Positions 8,424 through 27,974 of a stretch of 64,000 nucleotides of DNA are shown here, piece after piece. A model generated the notes under the pieces. The model saw nothing but the letters and a program-made list of their open reading frames with translations, ran no database searches and was not told the DNA's origin. The position numbers and the translations under genes are program-made. This DNA comes from Anaerolineae bacterium (GTDB lineage Bacteria; Chloroflexota; Anaerolineae; Aggregatilineales; Phototrophicaceae). Within the stretch, counting starts at the first letter, position 1; every line of letters starts with the position of its first letter. The stretch spans positions 50,535 through 114,534 of the forward strand of contig JAHDWN010000020.1 of assembly GCA_023382675.1 (NCBI GenBank), given 5' to 3'.

Positions 8424-9839
8424 ATGGATATGGTCTTTGTGGCAGGCCCAAGCATTGACGAGGGCTTGCTGGCTGATTTGCGAGCGCAGGTTCACGGCAC
8501 GGTGGTTGTGCCGGGTGATACCGAATATGACAGCGCCAGGCGCGCATGGAATCTGACCGTCGATCAGCATCCGGCAGTGATTGTGGTTGCCAGGAGCGCC
8601 GCAGATGTTGCGGCAGCCGTGCGCTTTGCCCGCACTGCGCGCGTCGGCATTGCGGTGCAATCGACCGGGCACGGTGTCGTGCGCCCGGCGGATGACGCTG
8701 TGCTCATCATCACCTCGCAAATGAAAGAAGTCTGTATCGACGCCAGCACAAACACGGCCTGGATCGAGGCGGGTTTGAAGTGGGGCGAAGTCTTGGTTGA
8801 GGCGCAGGCGGTCGGACTCACGCCGCTGTTGGGGTCTTCGCCCGGTGTGGGTGTTGTCGGCTATACGCTCGGCGGCGGCATGGGCTGGCTGGCGCGCAAA
8901 TATGGCCTGGCGGCGGACAGCGTGCGTTACTTCGAAGTCGTGACGGCAAACGGCGAGGTGATCCATGCGAGCGCGACCGAGAACAGCGATTTGTTCTGGG
9001 GGCTGCGCGGCGGCGGTGGCAGCTTCGGCGTCGTGACCGGCATGGAGATCCAGCTCTATCCGGTCACGACCGTCTATGGTGGCAGCCTGATTTATCCTGG
9101 TGAAAATGCAAAAGGGGCGCTTCAGTTCTTCCGTGAATGGATCAAGACTGCGCCTGACGAACTGACATCCTCCATCGCGATCATGAACCTTCCACCGCTG
9201 CCGACCCTGCCAGAATTCCTGCGTGGGCAGACCGTTGTCATGATCCACGGTTGTTACAGCGGGCCGGTGGAGCAAGGCGCGGTCTACGTGCAGCCCTGGC
9301 TTGATTGGATGCAGCCGATGGTCAACAGCTTTCACCCGATGCCGTTTCTCGAAGTTGAGACGATCAGCAATGATCCGCGGGACCCAAGCCCCGGATATGG
9401 CAGCGGTGTCTGGCTAGCGGATTTGAGCGACGAGACGATTGATCTGATTGTCAAGTATGGCGTTTCGGTTCAGGGGTCATCGCCGATTGTGAAGACCGAA
9501 ATCCGCCATGCCGGTGGCGCGATCAGCCGCGTGGACGCACAGGCGAGCGCCTATAGTCATCGCGATGAGAGTCTGATCATGCAGATGGTCTCGATCACAC
9601 CGACCGCGGAAGCGATGCAGAACAGTCGGCAGTATATGGACACATTCAAAGCAGCCATGGCGGCGCACGTGACGGATCGTGTCTATCTCAACTTTCTGGA
9701 CGGTCAGGAAGCCCGCGATAAGACGCCGAACGCCTATTCGGCGGACAACTATCGGCGGCTAATGGCGCTGAAAGCCAAATACGACCCGGACAATCTTTTC
9801 AGCCACAGCTTCAATATTCCGCCGGCTGCGAAGTCGTAG
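8424..9839 (+). CDS. FAD-binding oxidoreductase, berberine bridge enzyme-like (BBE) family
   Basis: A 471-residue flavoprotein. The FAD_binding_4 domain spans about residues 40-180, with STGHG at the usual site of 8-alpha-histidyl FAD linkage and LGGGMGWLARKYGLAADSV. The second linkage cysteine of bicovalent members (GxCxxVG) is replaced by Ser/Pro in GSSPGVGVVG, so the flavin is probably held by one bond only. The BBE domain is at the C-terminus (NAYSADNYRRLMALKAKYDPDNLFS). Such enzymes oxidise sugars, lactones or alkaloids with O2; substrate unknown. Followed by a strong terminator, so probably monocistronic. Confidence 0.87.
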   Translation: MDMVFVAGPSIDEGLLADLRAQVHGTVVVPGDTEYDSARRAWNLTVDQHPAVIVVARSAADVAAAVRFARTARVGIAVQSTGHGVVRPADDAVLIITSQMKEVCIDASTNTAWIEAGLKWGEVLVEAQAVGLTPLLGSSPGVGVVGYTLGGGMGWLARKYGLAADSVRYFEVVTANGEVIHASATENSDLFWGLRGGGGSFGVVTGMEIQLYPVTTVYGGSLIYPGENAKGALQFFREWIKTAPDELTSSIAIMNLPPLPTLPEFLRGQTVVMIHGCYSGPVEQGAVYVQPWLDWMQPMVNSFHPMPFLEVETISNDPRDPSPGYGSGVWLADLSDETIDLIVKYGVSVQGSSPIVKTEIRHAGGAISRVDAQASAYSHRDESLIMQMVSITPTAEAMQNSRQYMDTFKAAMAAHVTDRVYLNFLDGQEARDKTPNAYSADNYRRLMALKAKYDPDNLFSHSFNIPPAAKS

Positions 9840-9889: not shown

Positions 9890-9992
9890 GAAACACCCCA
9901 TCGTAAGGTCCACCCAATCTCCGACTTTAGGAGGATACGGAATCGGCGCTAAACTGGGATCATATTAGACATTCTTGCTCTGGAGGGGTCGT

Positions 9993-10637
9993 ATGTCTAT
10001 TCGCCTACTCATTGTCGATGATCACGCCGTCGTTCGTCAGGGGCTGCGCCTGTTCTTGAAGGTCGATCCCGAATTGGAGATCGTTGGTGAGGCGGTCAAC
10101 GGTCTTCAAGCAATCGAAATGGCACAGCAGCTTAAGCCGGACGTGATCTTGATGGATCTACTGATGCCCGGCATGAACGGCGTTGAAGCGACGGCTGCGA
10201 TTAAACAGCTTGTGCCGGAGACGGAAATCGTCGCTTTGACGAGTGTGTTGGAGGATCAATCGGTGGTGGGCGCGGTGCGTGCCGGGGCGATTGGCTACAT
10301 GCTCAAGGACACCGATGCGCCGGAACTGGTGAACGCTATTCGGGCTGCCGCCGCCGGGCAGGTGCAGCTTTCGCCCAAAGCAGCTGCGCGTTTGATGCGG
10401 GAAGTCCGTGTGCCGCAGTCGCCGGAAAAACTGACCGACCGCGAGGTCGAAGTGCTGCGCTTGCTGGCGCAGGGCAAGGCCAATAAAGAGATCAGCCGGG
10501 AACTGCACATCAGCGAGACGACTGTGAAATCACATGTGGGGGCAATTCTGGGGAAACTTGGCGTTGCGAGCCGCACCCAGGCCGCGCTCTATGCCGTTAG
10601 CATCGGCCTGGTAGAAATGCCAAAAGACGCAGTCTAA
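9993..10637 (+). CDS. NarL/LuxR-family response regulator
   Basis: A 214-residue DNA-binding response regulator. The receiver domain has the acidic pair in [13 protein letters not shown], phospho-acceptor Asp in [13 protein letters not shown], and Lys in YMLKDTDA. The C-terminal LuxR helix-turn-helix reads [37 protein letters not shown] start at the ATG at 9993, preceded by GGAGGGG; the ORF-track TTG at 9975 includes that ribosome site. The multi-GAF kinase nearby on the opposite strand is a HisKA_3-type kinase, the class that pairs with NarL regulators, so it is a plausible partner. Confidence 0.92.
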
Positions 10638-10641
10638 GGGT

Positions 10642-11061
10642 CTAGATGGTTGTTTCAAAGACAATGGAGATGCCAGAAGCCAGGATCGCGTAGGTACAGG
10701 AAACCTTTTTCACTGCCTCGACAAGCTGGTTTGCCTGGTCTGCGTTCGGTCCCCAGAGCGCCATGCGCACGCGGATTTCGTGCCCCACTCTCTCTGCTTC
10801 TTGGATTGCGTGTTGCCATTCGACAGTGGTATTCATATTGTTCAACGGAATTTGCATTTCCTGGGCTGCGCGCTGACAGGCGAACGTGCAATCTGTTGCC
10901 AGCGCGGCCAGGAGCAAGTCTGTCGGCTGGCTGCGTTTCGTCACCGTATCCCGCAAGTAGGGCGCGCCCACGACGAGTTGGCTATCCTTGTAGGAGACGA
11001 TTGCGTAGTTCTGTTCACCTACCGGGTGGGCGGTCACTATAGTCGTACTGGTGGGTACCAT
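10642..11061 (-). CDS. OsmC-like family protein
   Basis: A 139-residue single-domain protein of the OsmC/Ohr fold. The region SQPTDLLLAALATDCTFACQRAAQEM matches the family helix carrying the first reactive cysteine, and VKKVSCTYAILASGISI holds the second cysteine near the C-terminus. OsmC proteins reduce organic hydroperoxides by a two-cysteine mechanism; many relatives have other, unknown roles. It ends 4 bp from the convergent response regulator. A weak upstream ribosome site makes the start less certain. Confidence 0.82.
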   Translation of the reverse strand: MVPTSTTIVTAHPVGEQNYAIVSYKDSQLVVGAPYLRDTVTKRSQPTDLLLAALATDCTFACQRAAQEMQIPLNNMNTTVEWQHAIQEAERVGHEIRVRMALWGPNADQANQLVEAVKKVSCTYAILASGISIVFETTI

Positions 11062-11130: not shown

Positions 11131-14100
11131 TCATCCATCTTCCCTTCCTACAGTTTCATTTGACACTTTTGATGGAGGCGCTGCATCCTCCGAAAGGCAT
11201 ATCTTGACTGTGATATGTGTCCCTTTGCCGACAGCACTCTCGATCTGAATCTCGCCACCCAGTTGTTCCACTCGCTCCCGCATGGATTGCAGCCCCAGAT
11301 GACCGGGGAAGTCGCGATCCGTATCGAAACCCGCGCCGTTGTCGATGACTTCCAGAAGCAGATTGTCGCTGTCACCCGTCAGGCGCAGGATGGCCTTTGT
11401 CGCGCCAGCATGTTTGACGACGTTATGCAGCGCTTCACGCGCGATGCGGTAGAGCGCTTCTTTCATATCCAGGCTCAGCGTGGGTTCTTCGCCCAGTTCC
11501 AGCCGCATGTCCAGCCCATGTCGTGCTTGCAGCGATGCGCCCTGTTTGGCGAGCGCTGTGATCAGACCTTCGTTCTCCAGCGATTCTGGTCGCAATTCGA
11601 AAATCAATGCGCGCATTTCGACCAGCGCGGCTTCTGCCAATGTCAGCACATATTCGACCGACTCTTTGACCAGCGTCTGGTCTTTCTCCCACATGGCACG
11701 CGCCGTTTGTGCGCCCAGACCAATGCCGTACAAAGCCTGCGACACGGAGTCATGGAGTTCACGGGCCAGGCGGGTGCGCTCTTCCAGCGCCGCTAGTTGC
11801 TGTGCCCGTTCTGCCAGACGCTCCGCTTTTTCACGTGCAGCGTGCGTTTCTTGCTGTAGCCTGATGCGCTCTACCGCCGCTGAGATGAGATCACCAAGCG
11901 CGTTTATCATGCGTCTTTCCCGCGCCGAATAGATCTTGGGCGTGCCATGATCGACACCAAATGCACCGAGAATACGATTGTTTCGGGAGAGACCGTAGCG
12001 CAGGTTTGAGGCGACACCCTGGTTCATCATCGTGGCTTTCGTCACCGGGTCGAGTTCGGGATGATTGGCAACGTCTTCATAGGCCCATAACCCTGGACGA
12101 GGATGCTCTTTGAGAAACGGCACATCTGCCAGGGGGATGCGCATTCCTTCTGACATGAATTGGCTCTGCCCGGTCGCGACAGTCTCGATGTAGCTGGCCG
12201 TATGGAAGTCGAAATTCTCGTAGATATAGAGATAGCAATCGCCACCATCGAAGTCAATGTGATTGACTGCGTTAAGAATTTCTCGGAAGCTATTGGCTGC
12301 GTTGATCGCCCGGCTGGCGCGGAAAAGCTGTTCTCGCTCTTCATTCGCTTCCGCTTCGGCCTGACGTGAACGAAAGCGTTCCAATGCGGCAGCCGTCAAG
12401 TCGGCGATGGCGACCATCAGACGCACTTCCTGAGGCATGAATTCATAGGGCGCATAGGAAGCGATGGCAAACAGCCCTTCCACGCGATGGCTGTGCATGA
12501 GATTGGCACAGCAGATGGAATGCAAACCAAAGTAGCGTGCCGAGTCTGCCGCCGGGTTGACGGCCCAGTCTGGACCGTTGACATCATTAATGACGAGAAT
12601 TTCCGTCGGATTCAGCGTTGCCGGGCCAGATACCAGCGCGCGCGGCAGTCGAGTACCTCCAGGGAGATTGGCATCGGTAGATGCAAGCGACTCCAGATAC
12701 GTCGCATCGGTGCGATCGTAGTCTTCCCAGGCGAAAATGGCGACATCAACCGGATCGTGGAAGAGGCGTTTCGTCGCTTCGAGCACCTCGGATATTTGCG
12801 ACGCCTGGTTGATCGCTTTGCTCACCTGATAGAGCAGCGCCATTTCTTCGCGCGCCTCTTTCTCCGCCAGAAGTGCCTGTCGTAGTGCCTCGGCTGTCGC
12901 TGCCATCTCTTTTTGCAGACGGATGCGTTCAACCGCCGCCGAGACCAATTCGCCGAGCGCTGTCATCTGGCGCTGTTCCCGCGCCGAATAGCGCCTTGCG
13001 CTGGCTGTATCCACGCCGAATGCGCCTAGAACACGGCCATTCCAACCCAATCCGAAACGCATACCGGACTTGATCCCATGTTCAAGGAGCGTTTTCCTGG
13101 TGATGGGGTCGATCTCCGGTTGGTTCTCAATATCTTCCATGATGAGCAGACCTGGACGTGCGTGATCTTTGAAAAACGGCATTTCACCCAGTGAGAATCG
13201 TCGTGGTTCCTTGACGAATTCGCCTCTGGCCGTCGATACCGACTCGATATAGGTGGCGTTTTGATGGTCGAAGTTCTCGAAGATACTGAGATAAAAGTCG
13301 CCGCCGAAATCGACATGGTTGACGGCTTCGACAATCTCGTGGAACGTGTTGGCCGCATTGATGGCCTGGCTGGCTCGGAACAGGATTTCGCGCTCTTCGC
13401 GGGCGTCCTTCTCTGCCAGCAGTGCCTGGCGTTGCGCCTCGGCAGCAGCCACCGTTTCCTGTTGCAGCCGAATGCGTTCGACTGCAGCCGAAACCAGGTC
13501 GCCGACGCCCGCCATGAGCCGTTTTTCTCGGTCGCTGTAGCGCCTGGGAACCGGCGAATCGATGCCCAGCCCTCCCATCCAGCGATTATTGAGGTTCAGG
13601 CTGACACGCATGTTTGAGTGTACGCCGAGCTCGATAAATTTCTGCTTCGAACGTGCATCGATGTTTGGATTTGCGGCGATGTTTTCATTGACGAACACAT
13701 CTTGGCGAGGAATGTGTTTAATCAGTTCGAAATCCGCGATCCACCAGCGCGCGCCTTCATGCTTGAACATATCTGTCGCTGTGGCGACGATGTCGAAGTA
13801 GCGCGCACCCTCGAAATTAAAGTTCTCGAAGATGTTCAAATAGATGTCACCAGGGCCAAAATTCAGCTTGGCGACGGCGCGCACAATGTCATGGAAACTG
13901 TTGGCTGCGTTGATTTCTTCACTGACACGGTAGAGCGACTCGGCTTCTTCGCGTGCCTCCTGTTCTGCGAGATAAGCTGCGTGCTGGGCTTCTGCGGCGG
14001 CGGCTGTTTCCGCTTGCGAGCGGATGCGCTCCACAGCGCCATGCACGAGGTTGCCCACACCCAGCGCAAGCCGTTGTTCGCGCTCGGCAAACTCTCTAGG

Positions 14101-16116
14101 ACGAGTGAAATTGAAGAAGATCCCGCCGACAAGCGTATTTTCGTGGTGGAAGGACACACCGACAAATGCCCGCGTTCCCAGGCGCAGCCAGTTATCGCGT
14201 ATGGCTGGATCGATGCTTTCTTCTGTCTCGATATCTTCGACGACGATCAGCCGATGCTGAAGCCATTCTTCGCTGATAGGAAAACTTGACTTCGGCAGAT
14301 GTCGCCCGAGCATGTTACGAAATTCACCGGGAACGTTCGCCGCGGCAACGATTTCGACATACGACGCTTTTTCGTAATCGTAATGTTCCCAGAGGTCGAG
14401 ATAAACACCAGCCGAGTCAGGTAAGATGGTGGCAACCGCCTCCATGACTTCCTGATAGGTCGTCGCTGTATTGACGCTTTCTGCCATCCGGTACAGGAAG
14501 TCTGCTTCCTCGTTTGACTGCTGCATTTCGCTTTGCAGCCGCACGCGCTCGGTCGCAGTCGCCACAAGATCGCCAATGCCGAGCGCAAGACGACGGTCAC
14601 GCTCGCTGAACTTACGCGGATCGACATAGCTGATGACAATCATGCCCCAGAGCCGCTCTCCCGATCTTAATGGGACTCCCATGAAGGCCTTGGTCGGCAG
14701 CGCACTAAAAAAGTCTTTCGCTTGTGCATCATGACGAAGTTCAGTGTAAGCGTTTTCAAGTATCCAGAGTTTTTCCTGTTTGGCGCTCTCACTGACTGCC
14801 AACTTGGGCAGTCGCATCTGAACCTGTGCCTCAATTGCGTCGGGGATGGCGGCTGTTGCAATCATTTCAAGATACGACGCCCGATCGTAATCGAGGTGTT
14901 CCCAGAAATTGAGAAATACGCCGTCACACTCTGGTTGCAAGCTGGCGACTGTATCGACGATCTCCTGATACGATGTCGCGGCGTTGATACGCTCCGCCAG
15001 ATGGTAGAGCGATGAAGCTTCGCTCTGGCTTTCCCGGGTTTCCAAGTAGGCTCGCCGTCTGGCAACCACAGACGCCAGGGTTGGCAGCAAGCGCGTGTAC
15101 AGATAACGCTCTTGCTCGCTGAAGATGCGCGGCTGCTGCCAGATGATCATCATGACACCCTGCCAGGTATTGGCACTGCGCAGGGGCAGCAGCACTCCTC
15201 CACAATTGCCAACGTTCCGCGCGATTTCACGGTCCGCTTCGAGGAAACGCGGATCGCAGCCCATATCTTCAACAAAAATGGGGTCTTCGCTGTTCAAGCT
15301 GGCTATCATTGGGAATGGTGTGTCGTCCAGCGAGTAGATCTTGTTTTTTTCCGCCATATACACAAGCGGGCCAATCGAGGCTGCGTTGAATGCCTCAATC
15401 GGCTTGCCCTCACTATCCAGATTGACGTAGAGCAGCGACATTTTGTGGGGCGCGTGTTCGGTGAAGCTGCGAGCACAGGCCAGCATCGCAGCCAGAATTT
15501 CATCCTCGTTGCCGGCCTGGGACAGCGCCGTATTGATCTCGCTCAGTCTCTCCGCCCGCAGCGCGCGTTCACGATTTTGATCGAGCAGACGAATGGCGTT
15601 GATCGCTGGCCCAGCGCGGCGGATGATGATTTCGCAAATGCGCCGGAATTGATCGTCAAATGCCTGTGGCTCGCGCCAATGAAAGCCCAGCAAGCTGACC
15701 CAACGCCCCTGGACAAGCTGAGGCAGGAGCGCGACTGCGCCTACGTCCAGGCGACCATAATACTCGCGCATGGATTCATCCAGCAGCGGGCTTGTTTGGG
15801 TGTTTTCAATCAAGAGCGGTCTATCGGTTGCATCCAGCCGACCGTTGGCGTCATACCAGAAGGCAGGCAGGATGAGTCGATCTTGAGACGACAAATGAGG
15901 CTTTTCGTCTTGCGTCCAGCTTGCTGCAATCTCTGCCTCAATCGTCGTGGCCTCCGGCCCGGAGAGTATCCAGAGGAGAAAACCGGCCACAGCACCGCGG
16001 GAGCGTGCGTAATCACTGACCGCTTCCAGCCAGTCTGCTGGCGTGGCAGCTTGTGGCAGATCGCTGGCAATCTGGACGAGGACCTCGATCTCCGAATCCG
16101 TTGTTGGCTGTAACAT
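11131..16116 (-). CDS. Giant multi-GAF sensor histidine kinase (HisKA_3/HATPase_c)
   Basis: A cytoplasmic sensor kinase of about 1661 residues with no obvious membrane segment. I count about eight GAF-like units. Two divergent ones fill roughly residues 1-360. Six closely related ones follow, each opening with a line such as LFRASRAINAANSFREILNAV and closing with ERIRLQxExxAAAEAxRQALLAEKEAREE, a predicted coiled-coil linker. Repeat starts recur every 510-570 bp in the DNA (near 14980, 14470, 13905, 13350, 12815 and 12290). The kinase core has the phospho-His in ARELHDSVSQALYGIGL (near residue 1450), then ALHNVVKHAG and DNGAGFD. I prefer ATG 16116 (AGGG 7 bp upstream) over GTG 16122. Ligands unknown. 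Confidence 0.9.
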   Translation of the reverse strand: MLQPTTDSEIEVLVQIASDLPQAATPADWLEAVSDYARSRGAVAGFLLWILSGPEATTIEAEIAASWTQDEKPHLSSQDRLILPAFWYDANGRLDATDRPLLIENTQTSPLLDESMREYYGRLDVGAVALLPQLVQGRWVSLLGFHWREPQAFDDQFRRICEIIIRRAGPAINAIRLLDQNRERALRAERLSEINTALSQAGNEDEILAAMLACARSFTEHAPHKMSLLYVNLDSEGKPIEAFNAASIGPLVYMAEKNKIYSLDDTPFPMIASLNSEDPIFVEDMGCDPRFLEADREIARNVGNCGGVLLPLRSANTWQGVMMIIWQQPRIFSEQERYLYTRLLPTLASVVARRRAYLETRESQSEASSLYHLAERINAATSYQEIVDTVASLQPECDGVFLNFWEHLDYDRASYLEMIATAAIPDAIEAQVQMRLPKLAVSESAKQEKLWILENAYTELRHDAQAKDFFSALPTKAFMGVPLRSGERLWGMIVISYVDPRKFSERDRRLALGIGDLVATATERVRLQSEMQQSNEEADFLYRMAESVNTATTYQEVMEAVATILPDSAGVYLDLWEHYDYEKASYVEIVAAANVPGEFRNMLGRHLPKSSFPISEEWLQHRLIVVEDIETEESIDPAIRDNWLRLGTRAFVGVSFHHENTLVGGIFFNFTRPREFAEREQRLALGVGNLVHGAVERIRSQAETAAAAEAQHAAYLAEQEAREEAESLYRVSEEINAANSFHDIVRAVAKLNFGPGDIYLNIFENFNFEGARYFDIVATATDMFKHEGARWWIADFELIKHIPRQDVFVNENIAANPNIDARSKQKFIELGVHSNMRVSLNLNNRWMGGLGIDSPVPRRYSDREKRLMAGVGDLVSAAVERIRLQQETVAAAEAQRQALLAEKDAREEREILFRASQAINAANTFHEIVEAVNHVDFGGDFYLSIFENFDHQNATYIESVSTARGEFVKEPRRFSLGEMPFFKDHARPGLLIMEDIENQPEIDPITRKTLLEHGIKSGMRFGLGWNGRVLGAFGVDTASARRYSAREQRQMTALGELVSAAVERIRLQKEMAATAEALRQALLAEKEAREEMALLYQVSKAINQASQISEVLEATKRLFHDPVDVAIFAWEDYDRTDATYLESLASTDANLPGGTRLPRALVSGPATLNPTEILVINDVNGPDWAVNPAADSARYFGLHSICCANLMHSHRVEGLFAIASYAPYEFMPQEVRLMVAIADLTAAALERFRSRQAEAEANEEREQLFRASRAINAANSFREILNAVNHIDFDGGDCYLYIYENFDFHTASYIETVATGQSQFMSEGMRIPLADVPFLKEHPRPGLWAYEDVANHPELDPVTKATMMNQGVASNLRYGLSRNNRILGAFGVDHGTPKIYSARERRMINALGDLISAAVERIRLQQETHAAREKAERLAERAQQLAALEERTRLARELHDSVSQALYGIGLGAQTARAMWEKDQTLVKESVEYVLTLAEAALVEMRALIFELRPESLENEGLITALAKQGASLQARHGLDMRLELGEEPTLSLDMKEALYRIAREALHNVVKHAGATKAILRLTGDSDNLLLEVIDNGAGFDTDRDFPGHLGLQSMRERVEQLGGEIQIESAVGKGTHITVKICLSEDAAPPSKVSNETVGREDG

Positions 16117-16241: not shown

Positions 16242-17621
16242 CTATGCCTTCGGCGTAAGGAACACCGGATTGGTGACTGCGCGCAGCTCATTCGTCTCAT
16301 CGCGGATTTCGGCGACGATCCAGTGATATTGTGATGGAGGTATCGACCACACCTGCGTGCCAGGGGCATCGATTGCAAGGGTGTCATAAACGCTGCCATC
16401 GGCAATGAGCCGGAGTTGCGGCGGGGCATCTATGTCTTTCCAGGTACAGGTTATCTCAACGCCTGAATCATCGATGGCATCTCCCATCATGGCTTCATCA
16501 CCTGCGCTGTTGCGGGCGGTTAGCTCCAGGCGTGGGCCGCTGCTCAAGTAAAGATGACCACGCCGAACAGCGTCAAGAATCGCGCGCTCTTGCAGCGCGT
16601 CCGCGAACACGTTGTTGAAGCCCACGCGGATACCTTCCGGTATCTGGCCGTGAATATCTGTGCCAGCCGTCGCTACCATGCGATACCCTGCATTCAGCCA
16701 CGCATACCACAGTGCCAGTGCCTGCTCGTTCTGCTCGTACCAGGCCCCCTTGTTCCAGATTTCGACGCATCTGGCTACTCCGGGCATCGTCTCGGTATAG
16801 CGCCAATCGCAGCCAGTGCAGACCGGATCGCCTTGCGATTTGGGATGCGCAATGACGAACAAGCCACCGCGCGCTTCGACTTCCCGCGCGATAGCGTTCA
16901 TATCCCGTTCGTTGGCGCGCACACGCCAGTCGATCCACTCGCGCACGCCGAGCGCGAGCGCGTGCCCGTAGTACGTCGTCAACTCCATGCCGCCCATCGT
17001 CAGCACCGATTCGTTTGCCAGGTTGTGCATCTGCGCCAAACCAGACACGGTGTTGTGATCCGTCAGGGTTGCGAAATCCAGCCCCACACGCTGCGCCGCC
17101 GCGACCAGATTCGGTACATCCCAACTGCCGTCCGAATGCAGCGTGTGCCCATGAAGGTCGCCGCGATACCAGCCGCGCCCGCGCCCGTTTGGAGCGGACG
17201 GCTGTGGCAATACGTGAGCGGGTTGAGGCTCAAAACCGACGTTTATGGTGAATGTGTAGGCAATGGGATCGCCGGGGAGAATACGATGCGTATCGATAAC
17301 GATCTGCCACTCGCCGCTTGGGAGAGGGCCGGGGATATAGCCCGGTGTAGCGAATGTGTCCGTGATCGTCAGACTTTGATCGCGGTTGTTATGGCGTGTG
17401 CCGCGCGCGGCCTGCGGATCGAACAGCGTGAAGCACAGCAGGTGAGTGTACGGCGCAGTCTCGACTGCTTTTGGCTCATAGTCGAAGGCAATGTCGAGGC
17501 GCGTCGCGCCTGGAGGCAGGTTGAACGTGTGGGGGATATGCTGCTTGGCATCGGCGGTGGTCAGCGTTCCCTGAATGATGTGTTGCATAGATTCAGCACG
17601 TTTTTCGATTTGATATAGCAT
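16242..17621 (-). CDS. PHP-domain metallohydrolase, CehA/McbA-like
   Basis: A 459-residue protein. Residues 1-150 look like a beta-sandwich. The PHP domain then starts with GDLHGHTLHSDGSW (HxH metal ligands) and contains FATLTDHNTVSG, FVIAHPKSQGDP and TAGTDIHGQ, which together supply the usual three-metal site. A small C-terminal beta domain follows. PHP enzymes of the CehA/McbA type are phosphoesterase-like hydrolases; substrate unknown. Two in-frame ATGs (17621 and 17588) are possible and neither has a good ribosome site. It is upstream of the GAF kinase on the same strand, with 125 bp between them. Confidence 0.82.
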   Translation of the reverse strand: MLYQIEKRAESMQHIIQGTLTTADAKQHIPHTFNLPPGATRLDIAFDYEPKAVETAPYTHLLCFTLFDPQAARGTRHNNRDQSLTITDTFATPGYIPGPLPSGEWQIVIDTHRILPGDPIAYTFTINVGFEPQPAHVLPQPSAPNGRGRGWYRGDLHGHTLHSDGSWDVPNLVAAAQRVGLDFATLTDHNTVSGLAQMHNLANESVLTMGGMELTTYYGHALALGVREWIDWRVRANERDMNAIAREVEARGGLFVIAHPKSQGDPVCTGCDWRYTETMPGVARCVEIWNKGAWYEQNEQALALWYAWLNAGYRMVATAGTDIHGQIPEGIRVGFNNVFADALQERAILDAVRRGHLYLSSGPRLELTARNSAGDEAMMGDAIDDSGVEITCTWKDIDAPPQLRLIADGSVYDTLAIDAPGTQVWSIPPSQYHWIVAEIRDETNELRAVTNPVFLTPKA

Positions 17622-17852: not shown

Positions 17853-18935
17853 ATGAGGAAGATCGTTTCATTTCTCGTTTTTGCCATACTATTACTCACG
17901 TTGCTTCCCGCATATGCGCAGGAGTCAAGCCTGACTGTTCTGTGTACGCCGCAAGAAGACTGGTGCGTCGCGATGACACAGGCATTCCAGGAGGCGACTG
18001 GCATCGAAACCTCCTATGTCCGGCTGTCTTCGGGTGAAGCGCTGGCAAGAATCCAAGCGACGGCTGATAATCCCGAATTCTCGGTCTGGTGGGGCGGGCC
18101 GGCAGACGCGTATATCGCGGCAGCTATTGACGGTTTGTTCGAACCCTATGTATCAACTTATGCAGAAGTGCTCGATCCCCGATATGTAGGGGCAGACAAC
18201 ATGTGGTACGGCGTTTATGTCGGGGCGACCGGCTTTTGTTCCAACGTGCAGGTGCTTGAGGAGCTGGGCGTAGATGTTCCCACTTCCTGGCAAGATCTAC
18301 TCAACCCGGACCTGAAGGGTAACGTCGCTATGGCACACCCGGCCACTTCCGGCACTGCTTTCACGGCGTTCTGGACGGTGATTACGCTGGAAGCCGACAA
18401 ATTGGAAGAAGCGGAAGCCGGTACAGGCTACAATGAAGATGGCGCACCGACCGAGGCCGCTATCGATAACGCTTTCGCCTATTTCGCCGAGCTTAATAAC
18501 AATATTCTGCAATATACCCGTTCAGGGTTGGCCTCTGGCCCGATGGCCGGCCGTGGTGAAATTGCCGTGTCGGTGATTTTCTCGCACGACTGCGTGAAAC
18601 TTCAGGTCGAGGGTTTTGAAGGCGTCCTCGTGACATCCTTCCCCGAAGAGGGCACTGGCTATGAGAATGGTGGCGTTGCCATCATTAGTGGCGGCCCTGA
18701 ACCAGAAGCCGCGCGCATGTTCCTTGATTTCACGCTGAGTCCGGAGGGGCAGGCGACCGCGCTCCAGGTGAATGCCTTCCAGATTCCGACCAATCCTGAA
18801 GCGCCAGTTTCCGATCTGGCGGTTGATCTTTCGTCGCTGAAGCTGATCAACTACAACTTCCCGGCAGCCGGATCGATGCGTACGGAACTGGTCGAAAGAT
18901 TCGATACCGAAATCGCGCCAGCGCCCACGGAATAG
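17853..18935 (+). CDS. ABC transporter substrate-binding protein (iron/2-aminoethylphosphonate type)
   Basis: A 360-residue exported binding protein. It begins with signal peptide MRKIVSFLVFAILLLTLLPAYAQ, then the type-2 binding fold: LTVLCTPQEDWCVAMTQAFQEATGI, the QATADNPEFSVWWGGPADAY stretch, and a C-terminal AARMFLDFTLSPEGQ typical of Fe(III)- and phosphonate-type binding proteins. Ribosome site AAGGAAGAGG precedes the ATG. First gene of an SBP-permease-ATPase operon. Iron, phosphonate or another small anion are all possible; the iron-binding tyrosine pair is not obvious to me. Confidence 0.85.
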   Translation: MRKIVSFLVFAILLLTLLPAYAQESSLTVLCTPQEDWCVAMTQAFQEATGIETSYVRLSSGEALARIQATADNPEFSVWWGGPADAYIAAAIDGLFEPYVSTYAEVLDPRYVGADNMWYGVYVGATGFCSNVQVLEELGVDVPTSWQDLLNPDLKGNVAMAHPATSGTAFTAFWTVITLEADKLEEAEAGTGYNEDGAPTEAAIDNAFAYFAELNNNILQYTRSGLASGPMAGRGEIAVSVIFSHDCVKLQVEGFEGVLVTSFPEEGTGYENGGVAIISGGPEPEAARMFLDFTLSPEGQATALQVNAFQIPTNPEAPVSDLAVDLSSLKLINYNFPAAGSMRTELVERFDTEIAPAPTE

Positions 18936-18955
18936 CCGCCTACAGAATTTGACAT

Positions 18956-18994
18956 CGCGAACTGCCCTTCTCAAATATGGAGGGCAGTTTCGCG
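18956..18994 (+). terminator. Intercistronic hairpin between binding protein and permease
   Basis: CGCGAACTGCCCT pairs with AGGGCAGTTTCGCG (13 bp, one bulged base) around a 12-nt loop. Only a short T stretch follows, so it probably attenuates rather than ends transcription, keeping binding-protein mRNA in excess. The ORF-track start codon of the permease (18977) lies in its loop. Confidence 0.6.
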
Positions 18995-19033
18995 AGTTTA
19001 AACGTTACTTCTGAACGATATGAGGTCTTTACG

Positions 19034-20776
19034 TTGCTGAATCATACACGCTATGGCGCTGGATTCCGGCGCATCTGGCAAGATCCGGTGCTGGCAATTA
19101 GCTTGTTACTGGTGGTGCTATTTATTTTTGTCGCGATCATTCTTCCAATTTTGGCGATGGTGGGTGCCAGTCTTTCTGAGGAAGGGCGCGCGCTGTTTGC
19201 GCATTACCTGGGCGAGCGTGCTTATCAAGACATCATCACAAATACGCTGGTTATGGGGCTGACTGTTGCAACAGCCGGCACTGCTATCGGCTTCCTTTTC
19301 GCATATGTACAGGTCAAAATGAAAGCGCCTTTCAAGCGCTTTATGCACTTGATTGCGCTGGTACCGATTATTTCGCCTCCTTTTGCGGTTGCCACAGCCA
19401 TCATTCTCTTGTTTGGGCGCAATGGCATGATCAGCAAGGGGATTTTTGGGGTACGGTATGACATCTACGGATTGACCGGCCTGACCCTGGCTCTGGCTCT
19501 ATCTCTGTTCACGATTGCCTACCTCAACTTCAAAGGGATGCTTCAAGCGCTCGATCCATCGCTCGAAGAAGCTGCGACCAATTTGGGCGCCAGCAAGTGG
19601 CACATATTTCGTACCGTGACGGTACCAATGCTGCTTCCCGGGTTTGCCGCATCGTTCCTTCTGCTATTTGTCGAAGCAATTGCTGACCTCGGGAATCCGC
19701 TTGTATTGGGCGGCAACTATGAAGTGCTGGCGACGCGGGTCTACATCTCCATCATTGGTCTTCATGACAATGTCGCTGCGGCTGTCTTCTCCATGATCTT
19801 ACTCGTTCCGTCGCTAACTGTTTTCATTATTCAGCGCTATTGGGTCGGGCGAACTTCCGTCGTATCTGTCACTGGAAAACCAACCGGCACACCGCAGCAG
19901 ATCACTCATCCTGTGGTGCGGTGGGTCTTGATCAGTCTTGTGCTGGGTATTTGTGCCCTGATCGTCGGCATTTATGTGGTGATTTTTGTCGGTTCAGTCA
20001 CCAGGGTTTTTGGCGTCAACAATGCCTTCACACTTGAGCATTTTGATTTTGTCATTAACGGCTATGGTTCGGAAGCCATGGTCGATACGACAACCTTTGC
20101 CATTGTCGCTACCCCCTTGGCTGGTGTGCTCGGCATGTTGATCGCGTTCTTGATCGTTCGAAAAGCTTTTTGGGGCCGGAACGCAGTCGATTTTGGCACA
20201 ATGCTGGGTATTGCTGTGCCAGGTACGATTCTCGGCATCGGTTACTTGATCGTCTTCAATAACCCAATCACACTTACCCTGCCGTTTGTTGGGGATAATG
20301 TGCCTGCAATCACGCTCATCCCCAAGTTGACTGGCGGACGGGCCATACTGGGTGGTGCGCTCGCGATCATCGTTGTTTATGTGGTGCGCAGCGTCCCGGC
20401 TGCACTTCGGTCGGGTGTGGCGCTGTTATCGCAGATCGACCCGGCCATTGAGGAAGCTTCCATCAGCCTGGGCGCAGATAACGCCGTCACCTTCCGCAAA
20501 ATCACGCTGCCGCTGATCCGACCGGCTTTCCTGGCAGGCCTGATTTATGCTTTTGCACGGTCGATGACGACGATTTCTGCCATCGTTTTCTTGACGACCC
20601 CCCAGACAAGAATCATGACTCAGCAAATTCTCAATGAGACCGAGCAAGGCCGCTATGGCAATGCTTTTGCCTACTGTGTCATTTTGATCGGGATCGTCCT
20701 GGTCGCTATTGCCATTTTGTATGCCACTGTCGGATCAACGACGGGCGCGGAACGTTCGCTAGAAGGAGGCGCATGA
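19034..20776 (+). CDS. ABC transporter permease, FbpB-type (two fused MetI domains)
   Basis: About 580 residues containing two tandem binding-protein-dependent permease domains of about six helices each. The coupling loops are EEAATNLGASKWHIFRTVTVPML in the first half and EEASISLGADNAVTFRKITLPLI in the second. This fused layout is typical of Fe(III) (FbpB/AfuB) and thiamine/phosphonate systems. The ORF-track ATG at 18977 lies in a hairpin loop without a ribosome site, so I favour the in-frame TTG at 19034, which has GAGG 8 bp upstream and starts just before TM1. It ends 1 bp before the ATPase gene. Confidence 0.87.
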   Translation: MLNHTRYGAGFRRIWQDPVLAISLLLVVLFIFVAIILPILAMVGASLSEEGRALFAHYLGERAYQDIITNTLVMGLTVATAGTAIGFLFAYVQVKMKAPFKRFMHLIALVPIISPPFAVATAIILLFGRNGMISKGIFGVRYDIYGLTGLTLALALSLFTIAYLNFKGMLQALDPSLEEAATNLGASKWHIFRTVTVPMLLPGFAASFLLLFVEAIADLGNPLVLGGNYEVLATRVYISIIGLHDNVAAAVFSMILLVPSLTVFIIQRYWVGRTSVVSVTGKPTGTPQQITHPVVRWVLISLVLGICALIVGIYVVIFVGSVTRVFGVNNAFTLEHFDFVINGYGSEAMVDTTTFAIVATPLAGVLGMLIAFLIVRKAFWGRNAVDFGTMLGIAVPGTILGIGYLIVFNNPITLTLPFVGDNVPAITLIPKLTGGRAILGGALAIIVVYVVRSVPAALRSGVALLSQIDPAIEEASISLGADNAVTFRKITLPLIRPAFLAGLIYAFARSMTTISAIVFLTTPQTRIMTQQILNETEQGRYGNAFAYCVILIGIVLVAIAILYATVGSTTGAERSLEGGA

Positions 20777-25822: not shown

Positions 25823-25865
25823 TAGCATAAGGGTGAGCGCTAAAAGGTTTGCAAAGATAGTCATC

Positions 25866-27974
25866 ATGAGCGAGCAAACTGCCCGACATCTATCCCGGTC
25901 AATGATGGTGATATCTGTCCTACTCGTCACAGTCGGGCTGGCCATCAGCATTCTCGCGCTGGTTGTCAGTGGACAGGGCGTGACCTTCAGTCACCAGTTT
26001 TTTACGCCATTGCTTACCATCACTTATGGCGTGGTTGGCGCGCTTGTCGCGTCGCAGCATCCACGCAATCCGATTGGCTGGATGTTCTGCGCCATCGGTT
26101 TTCTCAGCGCACTCAATATGCTGGCAACAGGTTACGCCTTGTACAGTGATCTTGCTATGCCGATGCCTGGAGCAGCGTTTGCACGTTGGCTGAGCATTTG
26201 GATATGGATTCCAAACATGCTCCTCCCAATCACATTCACATTGCTTTTGTTCCCGGATGGGAAACTGATCTCACCGCGCTGGCAGTATGTCGCTTGGGCA
26301 GCAGGGCTGGGGAGCGCGGTATTCATATGCAGCATAGCTTTCTACCCGGGGCCACTGGTAGATTTCGGGATTAAAGGTCCCAATCCCTATGGAGTTGCGG
26401 GCAGCGCGGAAGTGCTCAACTTGCTCATGACCCTCGCGGCGCCCATTCTTCTGATTGGCGTGTTGGGTTCAATTGCCTCCGTCGTCGTCCGTTTTCGCCG
26501 CGTCACTGGAATAGAACGTGAGCAACTCAAGTGGTTGGCGGTTGCAGGTGTGGTCGTCATTGTGGGCAATCTTCTGGGCAGCATTCCTGCGCTGATCTGG
26601 GGCGACAATCCGATAACCCTGGAGTTGAGTGTAGTTGCCTCCGATATCACGATTGCTGGCATCGTCGTCGCCGCCGGGATAGCTATCCTGCGCTATCGGC
26701 TGTGGGACATTCATATCCTGATTAATCGCGCGCTGGTTTATGTGACCCTGACCGCCCTCATTATCTCGCTCTATGTTGGCATAGTTGGTTCGCTGGGAAC
26801 CATACTTCAAACTGGCGGTAACTTGCCAATCTCGCTCTTCGGGACTGGCATCATTGCCATCTCGTTTCAGCCGCTGCGGGAACGCCTGCAACGGGGCGTG
26901 AATCGGCTGATGTACGGCGAGCGCGATGATCCCTATGCTGTACTGGGTCGTCTCGCCGAACGGCTCGAAGTTGTCGTTGCCTCGCAGTCTGTGCTCCCGA
27001 CGATTGTGGAGACCGTCGCTGATGCCTTGAAGCTGCCTTATGTGGCCGTCGCATTGAAAGAAGGTGAGCGGTTGGTCATCGCCGCTGAATATGTGCGTTC
27101 ATCTGCATTTGTGCCGCAAGACAAGGAGAACATGGAAATCCTGGCGCTGGTTTATCAATTGGAGACAATCGGACAGATGATCCTGGCGCCGCGTGCGCCT
27201 GGCGAGTTGTTTTCGCACACTGACAGGCAGTTGCTAGACACAATTGCGCGTCAGGTTGCGGTCGCTGCATACAATGTGCACCTGACGACCGATTTGCAGC
27301 GTTCTCGCGAACGGCTTGTGACGACACGTGAAGAGGAGCGCCGTCGGCTTCGACGGGACTTACACGATGGGCTGGGGCCGGTATTGGCCTCGATGTCATT
27401 CAAATTGGATGCCATTCATAATTTGGCGGAGCAAGATGCAAATACGGTCAAGAAATTGGCGGCAGAACTGAAAGCACAAATGCAGGAGGCGCTGGCGGAC
27501 ATCCGGCGCATCGCCTATGATCTGCGTCCGCCCGCCCTGGATGAGCTCGGATTGGTAGGCGCATTGAAAGCGCACATCGTTTCACATAATCAGATGCAGG
27601 GGCTGCAAATCACGCTGGAAGCCCCGGAAAGCCCGCCGCCACTGCCCGCCGCCGTCGAAGTAGCGGCCTATCGGATCGTACTTGAAGCCCTGACCAATGT
27701 GAACCGTCATTCCGGGGCGCATCACTGCTATGTCCGGCTGTCGCTCCCTGATGACCTATGCCTGGAAGTTACCGACGATGGACGCGGATTATCCAAGGCG
27801 GCTCGAGCAGGCGTAGGATTGACCTCTATGCATGAACGTGCCGAGGAACTAGGGGGCACGTGTATCGCCGAAGCGTTGCCACAGGGAGGAACAGGTGTAA
27901 TTGCGCGCCTGCCGATATCGTCCGAAAGTGCTGAAGTTATAGTAGGAAACGAATGGAACCAATCCGGGTACTGA
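25866..27974 (+). CDS. Membrane sensor histidine kinase, NarX/LiaS-like
   Basis: About 702 residues. Roughly the first 310 hold nine or ten membrane helices, ending in RERLQRGVNRLMYGERDDPY, a junction common in NarL-pairing kinases. A GAF-like domain spans residues ~330-470. The HisKA_3 phospho-His is in RRRLRRDLHDGLGPVLASM. The ATPase domain shows ALTNVNRHSGA, VTDDGRGL and GVGLTSMHERA. It overlaps the response regulator gene by 22 bp, so the two form a clear two-component pair. ATG 25866 is chosen; an in-frame GTG at 25833 is possible. Signal unknown. Confidence 0.9.
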   Translation: MSEQTARHLSRSMMVISVLLVTVGLAISILALVVSGQGVTFSHQFFTPLLTITYGVVGALVASQHPRNPIGWMFCAIGFLSALNMLATGYALYSDLAMPMPGAAFARWLSIWIWIPNMLLPITFTLLLFPDGKLISPRWQYVAWAAGLGSAVFICSIAFYPGPLVDFGIKGPNPYGVAGSAEVLNLLMTLAAPILLIGVLGSIASVVVRFRRVTGIEREQLKWLAVAGVVVIVGNLLGSIPALIWGDNPITLELSVVASDITIAGIVVAAGIAILRYRLWDIHILINRALVYVTLTALIISLYVGIVGSLGTILQTGGNLPISLFGTGIIAISFQPLRERLQRGVNRLMYGERDDPYAVLGRLAERLEVVVASQSVLPTIVETVADALKLPYVAVALKEGERLVIAAEYVRSSAFVPQDKENMEILALVYQLETIGQMILAPRAPGELFSHTDRQLLDTIARQVAVAAYNVHLTTDLQRSRERLVTTREEERRRLRRDLHDGLGPVLASMSFKLDAIHNLAEQDANTVKKLAAELKAQMQEALADIRRIAYDLRPPALDELGLVGALKAHIVSHNQMQGLQITLEAPESPPPLPAAVEVAAYRIVLEALTNVNRHSGAHHCYVRLSLPDDLCLEVTDDGRGLSKAARAGVGLTSMHERAEELGGTCIAEALPQGGTGVIARLPISSESAEVIVGNEWNQSGY

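Follow-up and report, generated by a model that had tools for sequence, protein, structure and literature searches.

A reverse-strand gene at positions 11131–16116 of a 64,000-nucleotide stretch of DNA from an Anaerolineae bacterium (the window) encodes a histidine kinase preceded by a long run of repeated units, which raises the question of what these units are, how their number came about and how so many of them could act on one kinase. Receptors with serial PAS or GAF domains are thought to integrate several signals via coiled-coil linkers. The literature found on proteins with 5–10 GAF domains consists of papers on cyanobacterial photoreceptors and motility, with none found on the kinases considered here.

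The open frame comprises 1661–1663 codons, depending on whether translation starts at the first ATG, giving a protein of 1661 residues, or at an alternative GTG two codons upstream (16122). The full-length protein exceeds the Pfam cut-offs for GAF, GAF_2, GAF_3, HisKA_3 and HATPase_c, and its order is eight tandem GAF units, designated U1–U8, followed by HisKA_3 and HATPase_c. The HisKA_3 (DHp) domain (11578–11781, minus strand; residues 1446–1513; 62.8 bits) carries the phospho-acceptor His1455 within the motif ELHDSVSQ, while the HATPase_c domain (11194–11460, minus strand; residues 1553–1641; 48.7 bits) retains an intact N box (NVVKHA) and G boxes (DNGAGF and GHLGL), so that both the HDxxxQ phospho-acceptor histidine and the ATP-binding motifs characteristic of HisKA_3 histidine kinases are present. 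The H-box is invariant in 18 relatives, and the H-box, N box and G boxes are nearly invariant across an alignment of 18 kinases; judged by these motifs, the catalytic part appears competent. No transmembrane segment is predicted, the highest 19-residue Kyte–Doolittle mean being 1.48. The protein is an intact, soluble or cytoplasmic and large representative of a known type of sensor kinase. A more specific identity as a named equivalog was rejected, as the models for NarX, NarQ, LiaS, UhpB and MctS give at most 132 bits against cut-offs of 408–700, and a score for a NorR-like NCBIfam model was taken as generic GAF similarity. Its DHp domain with HDxxxQ, its HATPase_c domain and its pairing with a NarL-family regulator resemble those of DesK/NarX/LiaS-type kinases, DesK and VraS being its best solved relatives by sequence, whereas its input differs: it is made up of eight soluble GAF domains and lacks any predicted transmembrane segment.

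The initial annotation had described about eight GAF-like repeats, six adjacent ones of which recur every 510–570 bp, and both the number and the period are borne out. Off-diagonal 40-residue scores in a self-comparison of the kinase reach 141, against maxima of 24–42 in 20 shuffles, and searching with a unit profile yields eight units and no more, at 180–235 bits each, although these scores are not independent, the profile having been made from U1–U8 themselves. All units lie on the minus strand. At the N-terminal end, U1 (15574–16092; residues 9–181) and U2 (15031–15558; residues 187–362) score 190 and 181 bits with the unit profile, their individual Pfam scores of 18.8 bits (GAF) and 20.2 bits (GAF_2) being sub-threshold. 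They are followed by U3 (14515–15021; residues 366–534; GAF 39.5 bits), which also figures in the chimera analysis below, U4 (13996–14508; residues 537–707; GAF_2 30.0 bits), U5 (13444–13947; residues 724–891; 235 bits with the unit profile and a sub-threshold 19.2 bits with GAF_3), U6 (12895–13395; residues 908–1074; GAF_2 26.4 bits, slightly below the cut-off), U7 (12346–12846; residues 1091–1257; GAF 30.3 bits) and the kinase-adjacent U8 (11836–12339; residues 1260–1427). From U3 to U8 the start-to-start spacings are 171, 187, 184, 183 and 169 residues, corresponding to 507–561 bp. The remark that repeats 5, 6 and 8 are the most alike likewise holds: amino acid identity is 57% for U6/U8, the most similar pair (63% in DNA), 47% for U5/U8 and 45% for U5/U6, compared with 41% for U3/U4, while U1 and U2 share 27% with each other and 17–20% with the remaining units.

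GAF is the sole meaningful Pfam family in all eight units, and when units are scanned singly, U3, U4 and U7 exceed the gathering score and U1, U2, U5, U6 and U8 fall below it. U8 was chosen for AlphaFold2 modelling because it belongs to the units that are weak by Pfam, and the model, a single chain built with 66 related units, adopts a GAF fold (pLDDT 96.5, pTM 0.90). Its best solved neighbours in Foldseek are phytochrome PAS-GAF structures (E = 8e-9), at a sequence identity of 11–22%. U7 likewise shows GAF topology in a model of U7, U8 and the kinase (pTM 0.50).

Multi-GAF phytochromes and cyanobacteriochromes share with this kinase the GAF fold, long connector helices and serial GAF domains on a kinase, yet neither the cyanobacteriochrome motif DxCF nor a Cys-His pair occurs anywhere in the protein, which has nine cysteines in total, and a photoreceptor identity was rejected on the absence of these bilin-binding cysteine motifs. 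The tandem GAF domains of PDE5 and adenylyl cyclases show the same GAF–long helix–GAF arrangement, with PDE5A GAF domains among the Foldseek matches, but differ in their output domain and in possessing the NKFDE motif; no match to this motif was found in the kinase, and cyclic-nucleotide-binding GAF domains were rejected accordingly. Some of the units could be purely structural.

The likeness of U5, U6 and U8 had been taken to suggest that these units were duplicated recently inside the gene and that their copy number may vary within the population. The 57% identity of U6 and U8 agrees with such an origin, as do exact repeats of 43–45 nt in the linkers and openings of the only close orthologue found, a seven-unit kinase in the congener 'Anaerolineae bacterium SJ143' (L038). 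Within the window gene, however, DNA identity between units does not exceed 63%, no exact repeat of at least 18 nt exists, and identity between units at four-fold sites is 0.31–0.38, close to the 0.30 expected by chance from composition. A tree built from 113 units, taken from the window kinase and from relatives of the same GTDB family, places U5, U6, U7 and U8 each with their counterparts in other species, which implies that the likeness of U5, U6 and U8 predates the split from the congener. Recent duplication was rejected on synonymous sites together with this tree, and is now regarded as very improbable. Even less credence can be given to the idea that the repeat number is an artefact of assembly. 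Although the genome is assembled in 110 contigs, the kinase frame lies well within a 114 kb contig, and the order U1-U2-(U3/4)-U5-U6-U7-U8 recurs in the independently assembled congener. Units so strongly diverged, differing by at least 37% in DNA with no 18-mer in common, assemble uniquely and are not prone to collapse; a collapse of U1–U8 is unlikely and was rejected on this ground.

Unit number does vary, as had been suggested, yet the variation is found between species, and with respect to the congener it is located at U3/U4 instead of among U5, U6 and U8. The third unit of SJ143 is a chimera of a U3 head and a U4 body, the body of the window's U3 being absent; before the break 6 of 6 informative sites favour U3, and beyond it 11 of 57 do so (permutation p = 0.001). 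Because U3-type units are present in four further kinases of the GTDB family, the simplest reading of these sequences is that SJ143 probably lost a unit through fusion. The exact repeats in the SJ143 gene, of 45 nt between the U5–U6 and U6–U7 linkers and of 43 nt between the openings of U6 and U8, are limited to linker and opening segments, the bodies being mostly 44–70% identical in DNA, and the pairs that bear them show raised four-fold identity (0.65–0.66 against 0.43 expected); they may be read as gene conversion of the helices. Two further orthologues (L048 and L049) have nine units each, with different units duplicated. The youngest unit duplication seen is that of the adjacent units 2 and 3 of L048 (11046–12119, minus strand), which are 77% identical in amino acids and contain exact repeats of up to 56 nt. 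Within the same GTDB family the number of GAF units per kinase ranges from 3 to 10, and proteins with 9–11 GAF matches occur in other Chloroflexota; eight is thus a high number, as the initial annotation implied in calling it unusual, but an ordinary one for the lineage and not exceptional in these Anaerolineae. Elsewhere in the same genome, an open reading frame of 2417 residues (L060, contig C46, 3973–11223) has at least seven GAF matches, some set apart by long inserts and one apparently PAS-like.

The units were also described as joined by coiled-coil linkers, and the linker lengths together with the predicted helices agree with this. Linker length was measured between fixed points, one in the final helix of a unit and one in the first helix of its successor, for 163 direct linkers that belong to these kinases or to other Chloroflexota multi-GAF proteins. 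The lengths are 17 (119 linkers), 24 (26), 31 (17) and 21 residues (1), so that 162 of 163 are congruent to 3 modulo 7 and vary in heptad steps; related linkers share ancestry, and the 163 are not independent observations. The rule does not reflect one inherited length, because at least 20 length changes are required on the unit tree. As a control, the GAF bodies range over 140–176 residues and fill all seven classes modulo 7. The sole exception, at 21 residues, amounts to four extra residues, and an addition of four residues is a classical coiled-coil stutter. In most relatives 24, 31 or 38 residues separate the last unit from the kinase histidine, values again congruent to 3 modulo 7, and in four there are 35; in L054, one of the relatives, the intervening sequence includes a segment of GAF size that the profile missed.

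The single-chain model of U7, U8 and the kinase predicts an unbroken helix that leaves U7, spans the linker and enters U8 (model residues 143–188), and an 81-residue helix from U8 into the DHp domain (model residues 313–393), which contains the signalling helix at 11782–11835 (minus strand; residues 1428–1445). As the linkers are heptad-stepped while the GAF bodies vary freely in length, these observations support one continuous parallel coiled-coil spine running into a DesK/NarX-type kinase, in a protein that would be a parallel dimer. Heptad-dependent linkers have been established experimentally for the kinase YF1, have been described in LOV and phytochrome kinases, and are inferred or expected for spaced PAS/GAF tandems (PMC6798134). 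The linkers described here resemble those of the S-helix/YF1 type in their heptad-quantised lengths and their continuity with the DHp helix (PMC6798134), and differ in that seven follow one another in a single protein. Counting against a parallel spine, the S-helix paper remarks that antiparallel inter-GAF coiled coils have been observed in prokaryotes (PMC1592074). The heptad principle is already known; what is new is the long natural series.

The probable partner of the kinase is a NarL/LuxR-type response regulator (9990–10637, plus strand) with Response_reg and GerE domains, encoded convergently with it. It is taken as the partner because 19 of 22 related loci have a regulator of 60–96% identity next to the kinase gene; in 11 of them it lies upstream and shares the strand of the kinase, and in 8 it lies downstream in convergent orientation, as in the window. 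The three loci without an adjacent regulator comprise two on contigs of 7–12 kb and that of L054. Between kinase and regulator lies a gene for an OsmC-like protein (10642–11061, minus strand; PF02566, 31.4 bits), present in eight related loci, mostly those with a convergent regulator; it may conceivably be connected with oxidative stress.

Further genes surround this group. The CehA/McbA-type hydrolase, the OsmC-like protein, the regulator and the FAD enzyme are common to the flanks of the window and SJ143 kinases. The CehA/McbA family metallohydrolase (16242–17621, minus strand; NCBIfam NF038032, 269 bits) has been kept beside the SJ143 kinase, and the FAD-binding, berberine-bridge-type oxidase (8424–9839, plus strand) is found near related kinases (L038–L040, L050 and L051) at 56–78% identity. 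A solute-binding protein, weakly similar to 2-aminoethylphosphonate binders at a score under the cut-off, is followed by a permease-like frame (17853–20776, plus strand). The window also encodes a second histidine kinase of 713 residues with HisKA_3 and HATPase_c domains (25833–27974, plus strand), in which no GAF match was found at E = 1e-5.

Taken together, the protein is probably a soluble dimeric HisKA_3 kinase/phosphatase whose eight GAF domains, strung on a continuous parallel coiled-coil spine that would enter the DHp helix bearing His1455, tune the adjacent NarL-type regulator. Each pair of GAF domains, one per protomer, could twist the spine upon binding a small molecule or a partner, and the resulting net twist would set the balance between autokinase activity and a phosphatase activity suggested by the HDxxxQ motif, and the regulator would then control transcription. 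Unit number may evolve through recombination within the similar opening and linker helices, and because linkers differ by whole heptads only, gain or loss of a unit would keep the other units and the kinase in phase. It is also possible, if less expected, that ligand sensing is confined to a single unit or a few, with U8 or U1–U2 the likeliest, while the rest form a structural, partner-binding scaffold of nearly neutral number, which would fit both the lack of any known ligand motif in the kinase and the span from 3 to 10 units in kinases that share the output domain and regulator. Against such neutrality, unit bodies are mostly 71–81% identical in amino acids between the window and SJ143 (59% for the fused unit), although four-fold sites of the orthologous units are only 0.34–0.52 identical, which indicates that most bodies are under purifying selection, and unit types stay distinct clades across genera.

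If the spine reading is followed further, these kinases may, as a more tentative proposal that is somewhat less than evenly probable, represent an evolvable serial sensor array, in which recombination among near-interchangeable opening and linker helices adds, deletes and fuses units, the fixed heptad register lets the products signal at once, and how many units there are, and in what order, tunes which signals are integrated. Natural series with a variable number of units are few in the literature searched. This family offers 3–10 units on one conserved pair of output domain and regulator; its units have been lost and duplicated in nature, and their spacing follows a clear rule of 17, 24 or 31 residues from one to the next. 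The linker rule is in effect a design rule for multi-input sensors, and the family makes the number of inputs that one kinase can integrate directly testable.
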